Positions 41,220-55,095 of a stretch of DNA of 64,000 bases are shown here, piece after piece (position 1 is the stretch's first letter; each line of letters opens with the position of its first letter). The translations under genes and the position numbers were made by a program. Location: positions 1,364,001-1,428,000 of the forward strand of contig CP066225.1 of assembly GCA_016350165.1 (NCBI GenBank), written 5' to 3'. The notes below the pieces were generated by a model. It was not told where the DNA came from. It saw only the letters and a list, made by a program, of their open reading frames with translations, and did no database searches. Source of the stretch: Planctomycetota bacterium (GTDB lineage: Bacteria; Planctomycetota; Phycisphaerae; Phycisphaerales; Phycisphaeraceae).

Positions 41220-42134
41220 TCAACGCGCCGGCTCAAGTGGTATCGCATCCATCGTCGTTGGCTTCTGCTTCGGCTCTCCTTCAAGTGCTCGGCGAATAAA
41301 CGCAGGTCGATCAGTCGTAATCGAATCAACACCAATCTCCGCATAATACTTCGCAATGTGCGGACTGTTGATCGTCCAAATGTTGTACGAATAACCAGCA
41401 CTCTTGATTTTATCGATAAACGCCTTATCAACCTTATACTTCGTATTAATATCAACACCGTTCGCATTTACCGCTTTAAGTTGCGAGATAATCTCATCAG
41501 CCGTCGGACTCCACTGCCCTGTCGAGTCATTCTGCTTAAATTCCAACAGCAAATACGCTGGTATATCAGGCATCTGCTGCTTCGAAAACTTCACTGCTGC
41601 AGGATCAAACGAGATCACCACGATCTGATTCGGATTAATACCAGACGCAGCAATATCCTGTTTCACCAACGTCACAGCTTTCTCTGCATCCTTGCCTTTC
41701 TTAATCTCGACAAAAAACAGCTTCCCTTGAGGTACCGTTTGCAAAACCTCTGTCAATGTAGGTACTTTCTCGCCGCGATACTTCTCATCTTTGAACGAAC
41801 CAACTTCTGCTTTTCTCACCTCATCAAAATTCATATCAGACACAGCACCACCATCGCCGCCAGTACGCTCCAACGTATCATCATGGATACACACCAGCTT
41901 CCCATCCTTAGTGACATGCACATCCGTCTCAGCACCATCTGCATCTCTCTCCCACGCCAATTTATACGATGCAACCGTATTTTCAGGTGCATCCATGGAA
42001 GCGCCTCGATGCGCAATAATCAGCGGCATCTTATCAGCCTCTTGACCAGTTACACCTCTTGATATCCCTAAAAAAGCAACACCAATCAACACAACGATAA
42101 TCAACATCACTGTCAAACGAATTGCATTACTCAT
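41220..42134 (-). CDS. Glycerophosphodiester phosphodiesterase, membrane-anchored/exported paralogue
   Basis: 304 residues. An N-terminal hydrophobic segment (LTVMLIIVVLIGVAFLGISRG, about 7-27) acts as anchor or signal peptide, then the GDPD barrel: LIIAHRGASMDAPENTVASY, GAETDVHVTKDGKLVCIHDDTLERTGG, FFVEIKKGKDAEKAV, NIWTINSPHIAKYYAEIGVDSITTDRP. All catalytic residues are kept. The middle member of the tandem array, 47 nt downstream of the third paralogue, so these two are probably co-transcribed. Confidence 0.93.
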   Translation of the reverse strand: MSNAIRLTVMLIIVVLIGVAFLGISRGVTGQEADKMPLIIAHRGASMDAPENTVASYKLAWERDADGAETDVHVTKDGKLVCIHDDTLERTGGDGGAVSDMNFDEVRKAEVGSFKDEKYRGEKVPTLTEVLQTVPQGKLFFVEIKKGKDAEKAVTLVKQDIAASGINPNQIVVISFDPAAVKFSKQQMPDIPAYLLLEFKQNDSTGQWSPTADEIISQLKAVNANGVDINTKYKVDKAFIDKIKSAGYSYNIWTINSPHIAKYYAEIGVDSITTDRPAFIRRALEGEPKQKPTTMDAIPLEPAR

Positions 42135-42181
42135 CAGTCATACTCACTTATGCTTACGATGCCGCAGCAACCAACCTCGCA

Positions 42182-43093
42182 CTAAGGCTCAATCAATTCC
42201 ACTGCTTCATCTGTTTTGTATTTCTCTTCACCATTCAAACGATCACGCAAAAACGCAGCACGATCAGTCGTGATCGAATCTACGCCCATTGCCGCATACT
42301 TCTTTGCAACATGCGGACTGTTAATCGTCCATACATGAAACGAATACCCCGCATCCTTCACCTTCTGCACATACGCCTTATCAATCGCAGGCGACACGCT
42401 GATATCAACACCATCCGCGCCATATGCCCGTAGTACATCAATCACTTCATCCGCAGAAGGCGTCCAATTATCCGTCACCTCATCTTGATTCTGTTCAATC
42501 GCAACAAACACCTTTACCCCCGGCATCACCTGCTTCGCAACCGGCGTCGCCTCTGGATTAAACACAACCAGTTTCACTTGGTCGTCTTGCAAGCCCGACT
42601 GCTTCACCGCCTCCGCAATCACAGGTACAACCTCAGGTGACTTCTCATCACCCTTCACATCAATATAAATTTCCTTCCCCTCAGGCACCGTCTTCAGCAC
42701 CTCGCCCAACGTCGGCACCGCCTGCCCTCGATACACCGTATCCTTGAACGAACCCACATCCATCCCCTTCAACTCCGCCAGCGTTAAATCCTCAACGCGC
42801 ATATCCACCCCAGCCGTGCGCATCATCGTTTGATCATGCACACAAGCCAACTGCCCATCCTTCGTCAGATAAACATCCACCTCAATCCCATCTACATGCT
42901 GAGCCCACGCTAACTTGAACGACGCCAACGTATTCTCAGGTGCCTCATATGACGCACCCCGATGCGCGATAAACTTTGGCTGATCCCCTTCATTCACACC
43001 CTCAACCATGCTGAACGATGCCAAAAGCACCACACCGCAGATCACCAACAGCCCGCTCAACACAACAATCCGCTTAATTGGATGTTCAATCAT
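42182..43093 (-). CDS. Glycerophosphodiester phosphodiesterase, exported paralogue
   Basis: About 303 residues. Anchor or signal segment (IVVLSGLLVICGVVLLASFSM), then FIAHRGASYEAPENTLASF, GIEVDVYLTKDGQLACVHDQTMMRTAG, EIYIDVKGDEKSPEVV and FHVWTINSPHVAKKYAAMGVDSITTDRA. The HD pair is kept. ATG 43093 is chosen over a start at 43129 because AAGG lies 6 nt ahead. First gene of the three-GDPD array; the 280-nt gap to pheS is strongly C-rich and holds no gene. Confidence 0.93.
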   Translation of the reverse strand: MIEHPIKRIVVLSGLLVICGVVLLASFSMVEGVNEGDQPKFIAHRGASYEAPENTLASFKLAWAQHVDGIEVDVYLTKDGQLACVHDQTMMRTAGVDMRVEDLTLAELKGMDVGSFKDTVYRGQAVPTLGEVLKTVPEGKEIYIDVKGDEKSPEVVPVIAEAVKQSGLQDDQVKLVVFNPEATPVAKQVMPGVKVFVAIEQNQDEVTDNWTPSADEVIDVLRAYGADGVDISVSPAIDKAYVQKVKDAGYSFHVWTINSPHVAKKYAAMGVDSITTDRAAFLRDRLNGEEKYKTDEAVELIEP

Positions 43094-43365
43094 TGATTCA
43101 CCTTCATAATCTAGCCACAAACCGCTCACAACCCCGTCTCAACCCACTCCCCATACACACTCACCGCACACGTGCTTTCGCTCCTCACACCCATTACCCG
43201 CCATTCTAGGCCCCATATCCCCCCTCACTCCCATTCTCTTACCGAAACTCAGCCCACCCCTACAGGCAATTGCCCAGATATTCAGCCATCCACATCACGT
43301 CACCTCCCCTCCACCCAAAAACCACTCCACCTCTGCCCTAATTGGGGTTTCAATCCGCTTTCGGG

Positions 43366-44736: not shown

Positions 44737-45696
44737 ATGTCCACTCCCCCCAGCTCTGCCCCAATCATGCAGACCAACCTCAATCTCCCCGGCAAACGCC
44801 AAGGCAAAGTCCGCGATATCTATCTTTGCAAAACCAAAGCAGGCCAAGACGCAATGATGATCGTCGCGTCCGACCGCATCTCAGCCTTCGACGTCGTCAT
44901 GCCCAACGGCATCCCAGGCAAAGGCAAAGTCCTTACACAAATCTCAGCTTTCTGGTTCGATATGATCGCCGACAAATTCAAAGGCGAACTCGAACACCAC
45001 ATCATCTCATACAAACCCACCGACGTAGAAGGCATCACTTCCGACCAAGCCAAAGATCTCGAAGGTCGCATTATGGTCGGGCGCCGCTGCAACGTCGTCC
45101 CAGTCGAATGCATCGTCCGCGGCTACATCACCGGCTCCGGCTGGAAAGAATACAAACGCGAAGGCACCATCTGTGGCATCAAACTCCCAGAAGGTCTCGA
45201 AGAATGTCAAAAGCTACCTGAACCAATCTTCACACCTTCCACCAAAGCCGAGCAAGGCCTTCACGACGAAAACGTCTCATTCCAAGTCGCATGCGACACC
45301 GTCGGCACAGAGCTCATGGAAAAACTCCGTGACCTCTCACTCGCCATCTACAAAATGGCGCACGACTACGCAGCAGAGCGCGGCATCATCCTCGCTGACA
45401 CCAAGTTCGAATTTGGCATCCCACTCGACGACCCTTCAGGCACACCAATCCTCATCGACGAAGCACTCACACCAGACTCATCACGCTTCTGGCCAGCATC
45501 AGAATACGAAGTCGGCCACGACCAACCTTCATACGACAAACAGTATGTCCGCAACTACCTGCAAACTCTCGTCGACGCAGGAGACTGGGCCAAAGAACCA
45601 CCCGCCCCTGTCCTCCCTGACGAAATCATCAACAACTCACTTGCCAAATATCTCGAAGCCTACGAACGCATCACCGGCAAGAAATTAAACCTCTAA
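44737..45696 (+). CDS. purC: Phosphoribosylaminoimidazole-succinocarboxamide synthase
   Basis: SAICAR synthase of purine synthesis. 319 residues, the longer eukaryote-like/plant-like form rather than the roughly 240-residue form of E. coli. Motifs: GKRQGKVRDIYL, VASDRISAFDVVMPNGIPGKGKVLTQIS, VECIVRGYITGSGWKEYK, LADTKFEFGI, LIDEALTPDSSRFWPAS and YDKQYVRNYLQ. AGGAG at 44724-44728 lies 8 nt before ATG 44737, a clear SD. A TACAAT at 44717-44722 overlaps the leader but would exclude the SD from the transcript, so the promoter is placed further upstream. Confidence 0.96.
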   Translation: MSTPPSSAPIMQTNLNLPGKRQGKVRDIYLCKTKAGQDAMMIVASDRISAFDVVMPNGIPGKGKVLTQISAFWFDMIADKFKGELEHHIISYKPTDVEGITSDQAKDLEGRIMVGRRCNVVPVECIVRGYITGSGWKEYKREGTICGIKLPEGLEECQKLPEPIFTPSTKAEQGLHDENVSFQVACDTVGTELMEKLRDLSLAIYKMAHDYAAERGIILADTKFEFGIPLDDPSGTPILIDEALTPDSSRFWPASEYEVGHDQPSYDKQYVRNYLQTLVDAGDWAKEPPAPVLPDEIINNSLAKYLEAYERITGKKLNL

Positions 45697-45902: not shown

Positions 45903-47219
45903 ATGCCAGACCCACAACCAAATCCAAACCAAGTCGACACCCTCAAAGTCGCCATCTATGCCCTCTCCTTCGGCATCCTCATCACGCTATTCAAATTCTG
46001 TGTCTACATCTTCACAGGCTCCGTCGCCATCCTCGCCGACACACTCGAATCCATCATCAACATCGTCGCCGCCGCTGTCATGCTCTACACCATCTGGTAC
46101 TCAAACAGGCCTGCCGACAAGACCCACCCCTACGGCCACGGCAAAATCGAATTCCTCGCCGTTGGTTTCGAAGGCGCACTCATCCTCTTCGCGGGCATCA
46201 TCATCGTCTTCAAAGCAATACCCAAACTATTCACCCCAACACTCGAACTAGACAGACTCTCCATCGGCATGGGCCTACTCTTCGTCATCGGCCTACTCAC
46301 CACCGGGCTCGCCCTCTACGTCACAACCATGGGCAAACGCACGAACAACCAAGTCATCAAAGCCGATGGCAAACATCTCTTCACTGACGCACTCTCAACC
46401 CTAGGCGTCTTCCTCGGACTCATACTCGTCAACATCACCGGCTGGACGCGACTCGACCCCATCATCGCCCTCATCATCGCAGGCATCATCTTTCCAATGT
46501 CCTGGCGCCTCCTTTGGCAATCCCTCTCAGGACTCATGGATCGTTCAGACCCAGCTGACCAAAAGCTCATCGAGAACATCCTCAATCTCGAAGTCGAAAA
46601 CAAAACCATCATCTCCTATCACAAGGTTAGACACCGCCACACCGGCTCATTCCACTGGGTCGATATGCACCTCCAAGTCAACCCTGAACTCTCCGTCGCT
46701 CAATCACACGACCTCGCATCATCCATCGAAAATAAAATCGAACTCGCACTAGGCAGCGCCGACGCAACTGCACACGTCGAACCACCCGACGCATACTGCG
46801 AACACAACCCAGAAACCGCACACAAAAAACCTTCAACCCCTACCTCATCCACAGGCACTGCAATCCCCGCACACAAACCTCATCCATCACACAAAGAAGA
46901 CGATAAACCTTTCGACCCAACGGAACCGATCGACCTCGCCCCACCACGCGAAGACATACCCACAGACACAACTGAGTCAGCCGAACAATCGACACCATCA
47001 GCTGAATCACCCAGTAGTGATAGCGAAAAAGTCTTCACCAAAGAAAACGCCCTCACCGGCTCCGGCGACCTCTACGACCTCGCACACGAAGAAGCATCCC
47101 CACCATCCCCCCCGCAAGAAGAACAAGACCAATCCGACGATTCACTTGAAGATGAATCCGAAGAAGATTATCCAGAAGAATCCGACGACGACTTCAACGC
47201 CCCCAACCCCAACGCATAA
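45903..47219 (+). CDS. Cation diffusion facilitator transporter with long acidic C-terminal tail
   Basis: 438 residues. Residues about 1-295 are a CDF exporter (Zn/Fe/Mn class): six spans, ILADTLESIINI in TM2 where the metal site Asp is kept, THPYGHGKIEFLAV, DGKHLFTDALSTLGVFLGL in TM5 with H and D, and a cytoplasmic metal-binding domain (HKVRHRHTGSFHWVDMHLQVNPELS). About 140 extra residues follow, Pro/Ser/Glu/Asp-rich and probably disordered. They contain DDKPFDPTEPIDL, FTKENALTGSGDLYDLAHEE and an end SDDDFNAPNPNA. Usual CDF proteins are about 300 long. Pieces of this tail recur at 47675-47987. Confidence 0.93.
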   Translation: MPDPQPNPNQVDTLKVAIYALSFGILITLFKFCVYIFTGSVAILADTLESIINIVAAAVMLYTIWYSNRPADKTHPYGHGKIEFLAVGFEGALILFAGIIIVFKAIPKLFTPTLELDRLSIGMGLLFVIGLLTTGLALYVTTMGKRTNNQVIKADGKHLFTDALSTLGVFLGLILVNITGWTRLDPIIALIIAGIIFPMSWRLLWQSLSGLMDRSDPADQKLIENILNLEVENKTIISYHKVRHRHTGSFHWVDMHLQVNPELSVAQSHDLASSIENKIELALGSADATAHVEPPDAYCEHNPETAHKKPSTPTSSTGTAIPAHKPHPSHKEDDKPFDPTEPIDLAPPREDIPTDTTESAEQSTPSAESPSSDSEKVFTKENALTGSGDLYDLAHEEASPPSPPQEEQDQSDDSLEDESEEDYPEESDDDFNAPNPNA

Positions 47220-47331
47220 CCTATTACGCCAACCTACAAAATCTCTACAACTCAAGTAACCGCAGACCTACGGGCCGCGGTAGCCTCACAACCCCATCAT
47301 TCCCTTCGAATCAACTTCCGGAATCCCAACC

Positions 47332-47682
47332 ATGCACAAGTTCCTCATCGTTATCAATATCCTCGCACTCATCGTCTTCACCCTCGCACTAGTCTTCACC
47401 GAGTTCAGCACTATCGGCGGGCCAACCAAAGTCACATCACTCGATCGCGTACAAGCCTTCAAAGTCGATGTCGTTCAAGAACATTTCCCACAACTAGTCG
47501 ATGCAGGAGGTGTCAAACGCTACGACACAGGCCGATGGATTGCATCCTTCGAACGCACCTCCGCTTACCTCAACCTCTTCCTCGCCTATGCCATCGTCAT
47601 CATCAACTTGCTCATCGTCATCATTCACAAACTTTTCTTCACTAAATCAAAGAATCAACTTTTGGCCCCCAACAATGAGTAA
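47332..47682 (+). CDS. Small two-span membrane protein, unknown function
   Basis: 116 residues: one span at 4-24 (FLIVINILALIVFTLALVF), an extracytoplasmic stretch of about 50 residues (TSLDRVQAFKVDVVQEHFPQ, YDTGRWIASFER), and a second span (LFLAYAIVIINLLIVIIHKLF). The stop overlaps the ATG of the next small ORF (ATGAGTAA), which suggests coupled translation. It lies 112 nt after the CDF gene on the same strand. Family not recognised. Confidence 0.6.
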   Translation: MHKFLIVINILALIVFTLALVFTEFSTIGGPTKVTSLDRVQAFKVDVVQEHFPQLVDAGGVKRYDTGRWIASFERTSAYLNLFLAYAIVIINLLIVIIHKLFFTKSKNQLLAPNNE

Positions 47683-47987
47683 GAAAATCACCATCACAGC
47701 AATCACCGCAAACGAACCGCACCCCTCACCCACCGAATCAAACGTAGAAGACAAACCCTTCGACCCAACCGAACCCATCGACCTCAAGTAAAACAAAAAC
47801 CGCTTCCGGGAACGACAGCGCTTTCACCAAAGAAAATGCCCTCACCGGTTCAGGCGATATCTACGAACTCGCACACGAAGAAGCATCTCCCTCACATAAA
47901 AAACATGACAAAACCGACAAGCTAAGCGAAGAAAACCCCGAAGAACAATTCGACGATGACTTCAACGCCCTTAATCCAGATGTATAA
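47675..47987 (+). pseudogene. Frameshifted copy of the CDF acidic tail
   Basis: ATG 47675 opens MSKKITITAITANEPHPSPT and continues with EDKPFDPTEPIDLK to TAA 47789-47791. Skipping one base (T47789) opens a second frame that reads FTKENALTGSGDIYELAHEE and then EEQFDDDFNALNPDV to TAA 47985-47987. Both blocks occur in the same order in the CDF tail at 46900-47216. Removing the extra base would give an acidic protein of 103 residues. Interpretations: a partial gene duplication that decayed, a sequencing indel, or a +1 frameshift at the stop. Confidence 0.75.
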
Positions 47988-48020
47988 TGTGCAAAACTCT
48001 TAATTTCTGGAAATCAATCC

Positions 48021-48128
48021 ATGTTTGCACATTACTTCGGCGCATTTCCCGCCTTCTATCAACTTGTAATATTCGCTTTTGTTGCAGGCATCTTTCTGAT
48101 TATCTTGTGGGAAACCAGAAATTTGTAA
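48021..48128 (+). CDS. Putative 35-residue single-span membrane protein
   Basis: ATG 48021 to TAA 48126-48128. One clear hydrophobic helix (FYQLVIFAFVAGIFLIILW), then a short polar end ETRNL. A perfect TATAAT at 47983-47988 lies 32 nt upstream and TGGAAA gives a weak SD about 10 nt ahead. It resembles many uncharacterised bacterial small membrane proteins. Real but unproven. Confidence 0.4.
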   Translation: MFAHYFGAFPAFYQLVIFAFVAGIFLIILWETRNL

Positions 48129-48219
48129 TCTGTAAACCCGATCTACTTCTAGACACATAAGCATTCTTCACACCATCAATACCACAACTGGGCAGCCTTT
48201 TGCTCAATAACCAAATCAA

Positions 48220-49146
48220 CTATTGCCGCCGCGCCAACTCACTCTGATACTCACGCCCCAACTCCTCCTTATGCTTTTCCGCCCACGCCGTCAGCTTCAC
48301 CTTCCCCGTTGGCTCACTCTCCACATACAACAAATCATCCATCAGCCCCCCAATCTCATCGCGCGTAATCGTCACATCACCCACCCACTTCCCAAACAAC
48401 CATCCCACCACAAACCCCATCCAAGGCTTCACCCTCATCACACGCTTCTTCACACCAATAATCCCCATCAACTCCCGCGCTAACCCCTCATACGTAAAAC
48501 TCTCAGGCCCAATCGCATCAACAACTTCATTCTCCTCTTTACCTCCCCGCTCAACAGCCAACTCCGCTAAGTCCTCCACATGAATCGGCTGCAACCGGTA
48601 CTGCCCATCGCCAAACACACCAAACACCGGAAAATGCCTTAAAACATAGGCAATATTGTTAATCAAAATATCCCGACCACCAAACAAAACTGCAGGCCTT
48701 AAGATCGCATAACTTACACCCAAATTCATCAGCGTATTCTCAAGCTCCGCCTTCCCACGAAAATAACTCCACCTCGAATTCATCGACGGGTTCGTAATAC
48801 TCACATGCACAATCCGTTCAACCCCCGCCTCCTTCGCAGCCTCAAACAACACGCGCGTATTCGCCACCGCTTGCTCATGACTAAACCCATGACGCTTCGA
48901 ATTAAATCTCACCCAATACGTGTTATACAAAACCTTCACATCGCGCAAAGCTTCAACCAGCACATCCTTCCGACCAAACTTCAGCGGCCTTGCCTCAACT
49001 ACTTCCTTCAAATCACTATACCGCCCCACACTATTCGTCAGCGTCACAACCTTCTTCCCCTTACTCAAAAGCTGCTTCGCAATATACTCACCCGAATATC
49101 CAAAAACACCCGTCACAGCATGTATTTCTTTACGTTCAACATTCAT
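48220..49146 (-). CDS. NAD(P)-binding atypical SDR / NmrA-like epimerase-family protein
   Basis: 308 residues. Rossmann motif TGVFGYSGEYIAKQLLSKGKKVV (GxxGxxG, 12-30), NTYWVRFN instead of the SDR YxxxK, then ERIVHVSITNPSMNSRWSYFRGKAELENTL (a Y-x3-K-like WSYFRGK) and ILRPAVLFGGRDIL. The domain and length match the NDUFA9/YwnB-like atypical SDRs, which may bind NAD(P) without a known reaction. The C-terminal part has a hydrophobic helix (WMGFVVGWLFGKWVGD). A GTATCGT element lies about 80 nt before the start. Confidence 0.75.
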   Translation of the reverse strand: MNVERKEIHAVTGVFGYSGEYIAKQLLSKGKKVVTLTNSVGRYSDLKEVVEARPLKFGRKDVLVEALRDVKVLYNTYWVRFNSKRHGFSHEQAVANTRVLFEAAKEAGVERIVHVSITNPSMNSRWSYFRGKAELENTLMNLGVSYAILRPAVLFGGRDILINNIAYVLRHFPVFGVFGDGQYRLQPIHVEDLAELAVERGGKEENEVVDAIGPESFTYEGLARELMGIIGVKKRVMRVKPWMGFVVGWLFGKWVGDVTITRDEIGGLMDDLLYVESEPTGKVKLTAWAEKHKEELGREYQSELARRQ

Positions 49147-53664: not shown

Positions 53665-53973
53665 TTATTTTTTCTTCTTAGTTGCGCGTTTTTTCTTGGC
53701 AACTTTCTTCTTAGCTTTCTTCTTAGTAGCTTTTTTCTTCGCTACTTTCTTCTTAGCTTTCTTCTTAGTAGCTTTTTTCTTTGCTACTTTCTTCTTAGCT
53801 TTCTTCTTAGTAGCTTTTTTCTTTGCTACTTTCTTCTTAGCTTTCTTCTTGGTTGCTTTCTTCTTAGCTACTTTCTTCTTAGCTTTCTTCTTAGTAGCTT
53901 TCTTCTTGGTTACTTTTTTCTTAGCACCTTTTTTCTTGGATGCTTTTTTCTTGGTTGCTTTCTTCTTAGCCAT
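53665..53973 (-). CDS. Histone H1-like lysine/alanine-repeat protein
   Basis: 102 residues composed almost only of K, A, T and V. It opens MAKKKATKKKASKKK and then has five identical 14-residue units ATKKKAKKKVAKKK, ending RATKKKK. The composition resembles eukaryotic H1 tails and bacterial H1-like proteins such as chlamydial HctB and the C-terminal tails of some HU proteins, which bind DNA non-specifically and compact the nucleoid. No globular domain is present. ATG 53973 has AAGGA 9 nt upstream, a good SD. A gene-free, A-tract-rich region of 1.1 kb lies upstream. Confidence 0.8.
   Translation of the reverse strand: MAKKKATKKKASKKKGAKKKVTKKKATKKKAKKKVAKKKATKKKAKKKVAKKKATKKKAKKKVAKKKATKKKAKKKVAKKKATKKKAKKKVAKKKRATKKKK
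53689..53898 (-). repeat. Five tandem 42-bp units inside the H1-like gene
   Basis: Each unit encodes ATKKKAKKKVAKKK. The copies differ only at a few synonymous sites, so unit number is probably variable between strains. Confidence 0.9.
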
Positions 53974-55095
53974 GGCTTTAATTCCTTTCAATCAACCTTC
54001 GGAGCTAGTTGATTTGTCAAATGTAACTAGTATACAAAAAGTAAGTCAACAAAAATTATTTGTTGCGCCAAATTTATCGGCATGAAAAGTTACATCTCTT
54101 GAGCGTAATTTGAGTATGTATGGTTTGTTAGCAGTCGTTATTGATGTTTGAAGTTGTTTTAAAACACGAAAGCGTGTGAAGAATGAAGCGTTGCAATGAT
54201 GAAACGAAGTAAGTGTATTGCATGTGTTGTTTGATGAACAAAGAAGCGAAGCAAGTGATGAATCATGTGTTGAATTGATGTTTTGAAGACGTTTCGTTGC
54301 GAATTAAAGTAATCGTTAAGTGTTTCAAAAACTGCATTTACATGCGAGTAACGCGGTTTTCTGTTTAATCGTTCCCAAAAACGGGGTAAAAGTTTCGAAG
54401 TGTTCCCACGTTATACAAAATGATGTTTGATGTTGGTTTGTTTTGATGTTTTTATGTTGATGATGTTGCAATGTAGTGTTGCTGAAGAATGAATAAGCGC
54501 GTAATGAAAGCAAAAAGCATAAGTGATGGTATCGCTAAAAAAAACGGTAAAAAAAATTTTCATTTTTCTTTTATACGGACGCGTTTTTTATCATAAAAAA
54601 TGAAATGAAATACAAAAAGCTTATGTGCATGATGAAGTAATTACGGTTTGATGATGTTTTTGAAACGAGTTTGTGTTGTCGATGTGAAGTTGATTGATGT
54701 GAATGGAGTATGTGTTTAATGATTATGGTCGTTCATGCAAGCGTTTTGAAGTGATGCAAATGAGATGAAAACAGATACTGAGTGTATGAATGTTATACAA
54801 GAGTCACGTTATGAATCGGGTGAGATGATATCAACGTAATTGTTTGTTTTACATATAGTTGGCAAGAGATGATGTTGTATTGTTTCGAGTGAACCTTAAT
54901 GCAAATGTTTGCTATACATGGCATGTCGGCATGAAGAAGTGGTATTAAAGGCAACATGGTTGCGGTTGGTTGTTTGAAAGTAAGTAATTTGGGTGTTGAA
55001 TTGGATGTAAATGGATAAAAAAGACTGCTGCATGAAAGATGCAGCAGTCTGAGATGGTTGCTAATGAATCGAGTCATGTATTGAACATGAAGAGT
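53974..55095. other. 1.1-kb gene-free, AT-rich region
   Basis: Lies between the H1-like gene and EF-G2. The plus strand is G/T/A-rich with many TGATG/GATGT repeats and a dense A/T tract at about 54535-54600 (runs of 7-8 A and T). No ORF, tRNA or DnaA-box cluster was seen. It ends with the EF-G terminator. Confidence 0.4.
55016..55050 (-). terminator. Terminator of the EF-G2 gene
   Basis: AGACTGCTGCAT (55022-55033) pairs with ATGCAGCAGTCT (55039-55050), followed on the minus strand by a T-run, 46 bases after the stop. Confidence 0.95.

Follow-up and report, generated by a model that had tools for sequence, protein, structure and literature searches.

A frame-shifted duplicate of the disordered tail of a cation diffusion facilitator in Poriferisphaera heterotrophicis ZRK32, probably an old copy that recently became a pseudogene

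The stretch of DNA analysed here (the window, 64,000 nucleotides) comes from the deep-sea planctomycete Poriferisphaera heterotrophicis ZRK32, and the part of interest runs from purC through the gene of a cation diffusion facilitator (CDF) and that of a small membrane protein to a short open reading frame that repeats the 3' end of the CDF gene (Table 1). The copy lies two genes and about 0.8 kb downstream of its parent, close by and on the same strand, and a consensus scan of 47150-48230 found neither a promoter nor a terminator of the copy's own. The intervening membrane-protein gene sits behind the CDF gene in both Poriferisphaera genomes. Its 116-residue product is 65% identical in Poriferisphaera corsica, found no match in 39 other relatives, was found only in the two Poriferisphaera genomes, matches no Pfam family, and is possibly a partner of the transporter. 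Elsewhere in the window, two adjacent tandem paralogues of the glycerophosphodiester-phosphodiesterase type (IAHRGAS...APENT) were recognised by eye on the minus strand at 41220-43129, and at 53678-54000 a plus-strand frame reads as AFFLA/VAFF repeats that differ in number between the two species; the sequence suggests that the minus strand of this region may encode a Lys/Ala-rich, histone-H1-like repeat protein.

Table 1. Features of the CDF locus and its duplicate (positions in the window)
Feature	Position	Strand	Remarks
purC	44737-45696		upstream of the CDF gene
Parent gene, encoding a CDF cation-efflux transporter of 438 aa	45903-47219	+	Pfam and NCBIfam matches
Genus-specific disordered C-terminal tail of the CDF, past the ZT_dimer domain	46788-47219	+	
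Part of the CDF gene's 3' end from which the duplicate derives	46856-47219	+	local alignment
Block 1 in CDF, KPFDPTEPIDL	46905-46937	+	
Block 2 in CDF, FTKENALTGSGDLYDLAHEE region	47034-47101	+	copy's DNA 90% identical over 68 bases
Block 3 in CDF, DDDFNAPNPNA	47184-47216	+	C-terminus of the CDF
116-aa two-helix membrane protein, family unknown, between parent and copy	47332-47682	+	syntenic in P. corsica
Copy ORF region	47675-47987		last in the order purC, CDF, membrane-protein gene, copy
Opening half of the copy, a 38-codon ORF that contains block 1	47675-47791	+	stop TAA 47789-47791
Duplicated segment (copy)	47695-47987	+	local alignment
Interval holding the frame change	47748-47789	+	both frames open
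Shifted half of the copy, read in the +1 frame, with blocks 2 and 3	47790-47987	+	no internal stop

The parent gene belongs to the CDF family, since both of its domains are present, Cation_efflux (E 1e-44, 153 bits) and ZT_dimer (E 3e-15, 56 bits) each matching Pfam above gathering, and it scores 219 bits against a cut-off of 82 with the NCBIfam CDF superfamily model TIGR01297. It falls below the equivalog cut-offs of the CDF subtypes (MntE 218/500, FieF 154/420, MamM 135/350), so that the metal is not assignable. Within the core (45903-46790), D46, E49, S50 and N53 of helix 2 and H158 and D162 of helix 5 are invariant in 20 Phycisphaerales CDFs, which suggests that in this register membrane helix 2 does without the usual HxxxD or DxxxD pair.

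From about residue 296 the transporter continues into an acidic tail of about 140 residues, whereas in other family members the CDF either stops within some tens of residues of ZT_dimer or carries an unrelated tail. The predicted structure (AlphaFold) has a confident core and a disordered tail with pLDDT mostly about 40-57, and block 2 is the only part of the tail with predicted structure, in the form of two short, low-confidence helices at 380-385 and 389-396. The P. corsica CDF has the same tail with the blocks EPIDLAPPR, FTVENAITGSGDLYELAHEE and DDDFNAPNP, and this conservation fits short functional motifs, in line with the initial annotation, which took the blocks to be likely binding motifs. 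Its proposal that they be sought in related genomes was borne out within Poriferisphaera; beyond the genus, two GTDB r220 scans and searches of 400 genomes from the order and 392 from the phylum turned up no convincing match to tail or block. A wider family of the tail was rejected on the same scans, where the weak matches beyond Poriferisphaera (E 0.02-0.1) were short pieces of 9-16 residues such as chance would give, or spanned 43 positions at E 0.02. By motif pattern, neither block 2 nor block 3 occurs in any other protein of the ZRK32 and P. corsica genomes. The layout resembles that of MamM, in which Cation_efflux and a cytoplasmic ZT_dimer are likewise followed by a disordered tail (residues 294-318 not ordered), and tail-less MamM still gave wild-type-like particles (PMC3962391); the ZRK32 tail differs from it in its length of some 140 residues, its acidity, its three conserved blocks, its restriction to the genus, and in having been copied as a separate ORF.

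The duplication is plain from local alignment of the source segment with the copy, which scores 195 where the best of 200 dinucleotide shuffles reaches 63. As the initial annotation had it, all three blocks recur in the same order in the small ORF: the CDF blocks KPFDPTEPIDL, FTKENALTGSGDLYDLAHEE and DDDFNAPNP correspond to KPFDPTEPIDL (identical), FTKENALTGSGDIYELAHEE (two changes) and DDDFNALNP (one change), the latter two blocks lying out of frame past the TAA at 47789. The ORF opens at an ATG 20 bases ahead of the duplicated part and, again as described, overlaps the preceding 116-codon gene, in ATGAGTAA. A larger tandem duplication that included the membrane-protein gene was rejected, as 47220-47700 and 47988-48225 are dissimilar (232 of 500 shuffles were as good).

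The shifted frame is open from 47748 to the stop TAA at 47985-47987, and both frames are open between TAG 47745 and TAA 47789. The frame break itself therefore stands as first described, but its attribution to one extra base, T47789, is one of many readings: any indel of the same phase within 47745-47789 looks alike, and because the linker also differs in length from that of the CDF, which bases were gained or lost, and how many, is not readable from the sequence. From 47748 the shifted half contains no ATG, GTG or TTG, and independent translation of the second half is ruled out for want of a start codon. The copy thus has a frame disrupted relative to its homologue and no alternative start for the remainder, as in a frame-shifted pseudogene. 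Further disabling changes have not accumulated, there being no further stop in either half, which is expected if the pseudogene is young.

P. corsica keeps the order purC, CDF, membrane-protein gene and has no copy; an unrelated AT-rich ORF of 201 codons and 34% G+C (L051 4769-5433) occupies the slot, which contains no remnant of the copy. This ORF has weak, sub-threshold DUF4145/HEPN-like matches. The different contents suggest that the slot behind the membrane-protein gene is a variable insertion slot, and since P. corsica does without the copy in the same place, the copy is dispensable in the genus. Neither the 400 genomes of the order nor the GTDB r220 scans yielded a second copy, and motif patterns located none elsewhere in the two Poriferisphaera genomes; the intact 103-residue orthologue that would have made this small protein a family of its own was likewise not found in the 400 genomes and the GTDB r220 scans.

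Within the blocks the copy has diverged from the tail at 16 of 31 silent sites and at 6 of 110 non-silent ones (pS 0.51, pN 0.055). For the whole halves dN/dS is 0.31 and 0.35 with dS of 0.9-1.0, and between ZRK32 and P. corsica dS is 0.52 in purC, 0.62 in the CDF core and 0.67 in the membrane-protein gene. As the silent divergence of copy and tail is at least that of these neighbouring genes between species, the duplication dates from about the time of the species split or from before it. The site counts (copy equal to P. corsica at 8, copy equal to its own CDF at 18, own CDF equal to P. corsica at 9) lean weakly towards a duplication after the split. The two CDF tails agree at 34 positions of the shifted half; the copy has retained 27 of these residues and shows 9 silent codon changes, and in simulations of an unconstrained copy with equal clocks no neutral rate that we tried gave both figures, while a late neutral phase of up to about 0.1 substitutions per site is compatible if the copy was constrained earlier. 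When the whole length was simulated, neither complete neutrality at the expected rate (P 0.003) nor, for the second half, complete constraint of the CDF kind (P 0.005) was compatible with the data, which fit either a period of constraint and then one of relaxation or motifs that were kept while the linkers between them were free; these estimates of constraint draw on few codons, partly in blocks already seen to be conserved, involve small numbers and depend on the substitution model used. Most changes fall in the last block (5 of 13 conserved columns), as would be expected at the onset of decay. High silent divergence combined with kept block residues argues that selection acted on the protein encoded by both halves during most of the time since the duplication, and the break must then be recent, artefactual or bypassed.

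Considering these data, we favour as probable, from the one genome at hand, that the locus holds an old partial duplicate of the CDF tail that was once a soluble copy of about 103 residues and is now a young pseudogene in ZRK32. Decay was among the options offered by the initial annotation and is the most likely of them. Sequencing error, another of them, is a possible but less likely source of the break. Under an error of assembly or sequencing the living strain would have an intact gene for a free tail copy of about 103 residues, kept as a decoy or second binding partner, and this would agree with the past constraint on both halves and explain the absence of further stops; we consider it unlikely. 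The ZRK32 assembly does include Nanopore data, but it is a hybrid with Illumina (PMC10945688), and the A runs lie past the stop, where an error in length would leave TAA 47789 in place. Moreover, among 226 P. corsica ORFs with a ZRK32 counterpart in the 400 kb around the site no frameshift was confirmed, the three flagged cases turning out to be an ORF extension or else ORFs that are antisense or unlikely for other reasons, which makes a stray assembly error less likely and favours a true mutation. The GeneTack survey attributed singleton frame-shifted genes to indels or sequencing errors (PMC3711429), and the copy resembles these in having one frame break in one genome and no recoding motif, but differs in that the broken gene is a partial duplicate of the disordered tail encoded next to it. 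Somewhat less probable again is a reading in which the full-length free tail is still made, whether by a frame change of an unrecognised kind or because the break is an assembly error, and works in trans as a decoy for the tail's binder; were this so, a detached copy of the transporter's own disordered tail would regulate it.

A programmed +1 frameshift at AAG-TAA, as put forward in the initial annotation, would join the halves of the copy to yield a long and a short product. Conservation of the shifted half speaks for it, as does +1 shifting over TAA in Poriferisphaera prfB; a bypass in the copy would go in the same +1 direction. However, the prfB site is CTT-TAA-C in both Poriferisphaera species, with the same core across the order, while the copy reads AAG-TAA-A, which offers no P-site (slippery) codon able to re-pair like the CTTT of prfB, an A after the stop in place of the weak-context C (contexts per PMC12421855), and no purine-rich stimulatory element upstream. 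Nor is the site found in a second species, since neither P. corsica nor any other species searched has the copy. As the site lacks a slippery codon, the weak stop context of prfB, a stimulator and conservation, the proposal is not supported, and we regard such recoding as very improbable. As to prfB itself, the ZRK32 gene (RF2) lies at 4284726-4285766, and in Phycisphaerales the site is CTT-T(A/G)A-C, the in-frame stop being TAA in most family members read, with TCCGCGACTCT or a sequence close to it ahead of the site and no AGGGGG Shine-Dalgarno-like element. This element has been called hyper-conserved, with TAA at the site in only 1.4% of genomes (PMC12421855).

Two further readings would dispense with a full-length product. 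That the 38-codon first-half ORF alone is functional and the second half debris could be argued from block 1, which differs from the CDF block at four silent and no non-silent sites, and from the overlap with the previous gene, which makes coupling possible; this is nevertheless quite unlikely, as the shifted block 2 has kept its residues at similar silent divergence, unlike debris dating from the duplication. That the copy was never a gene, being a neutral relic kept similar by gene conversion with the CDF tail, has very little probability. Parent and copy are near enough and in the same orientation for it, but conversion would erase silent differences too, and the block differences are mostly silent, while the equal-clock neutral simulations fail.

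In the pseudogene reading that we prefer, the 3' segment of the CDF gene was duplicated to about 0.8 kb downstream, behind the membrane-protein gene, roughly at the time of the Poriferisphaera species split, and the copy formed a small gene whose translation was probably coupled to that of the gene before it. This gene would have encoded the acidic cytoplasmic tail of the transporter as a free protein of about 103 residues with the same three motifs. Judging from motif conservation only, the free tail could have engaged whatever partner the tail has, either as a decoy or as a second anchor, and selection held the motif residues for most of the copy's life. A recent indel within 47748-47789, presumably present in the living cell as well, would then have put motifs 2 and 3 out of frame, after which only a 38-residue peptide with motif 1 could be made. 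Taken together, the three short motifs in a disordered CDF tail, kept in two species and in a separate copy, are candidate binding sites, and the locus provides a small, well-supported case of partial duplication, selection and decay within one genus, the decay being of an ordinary kind.
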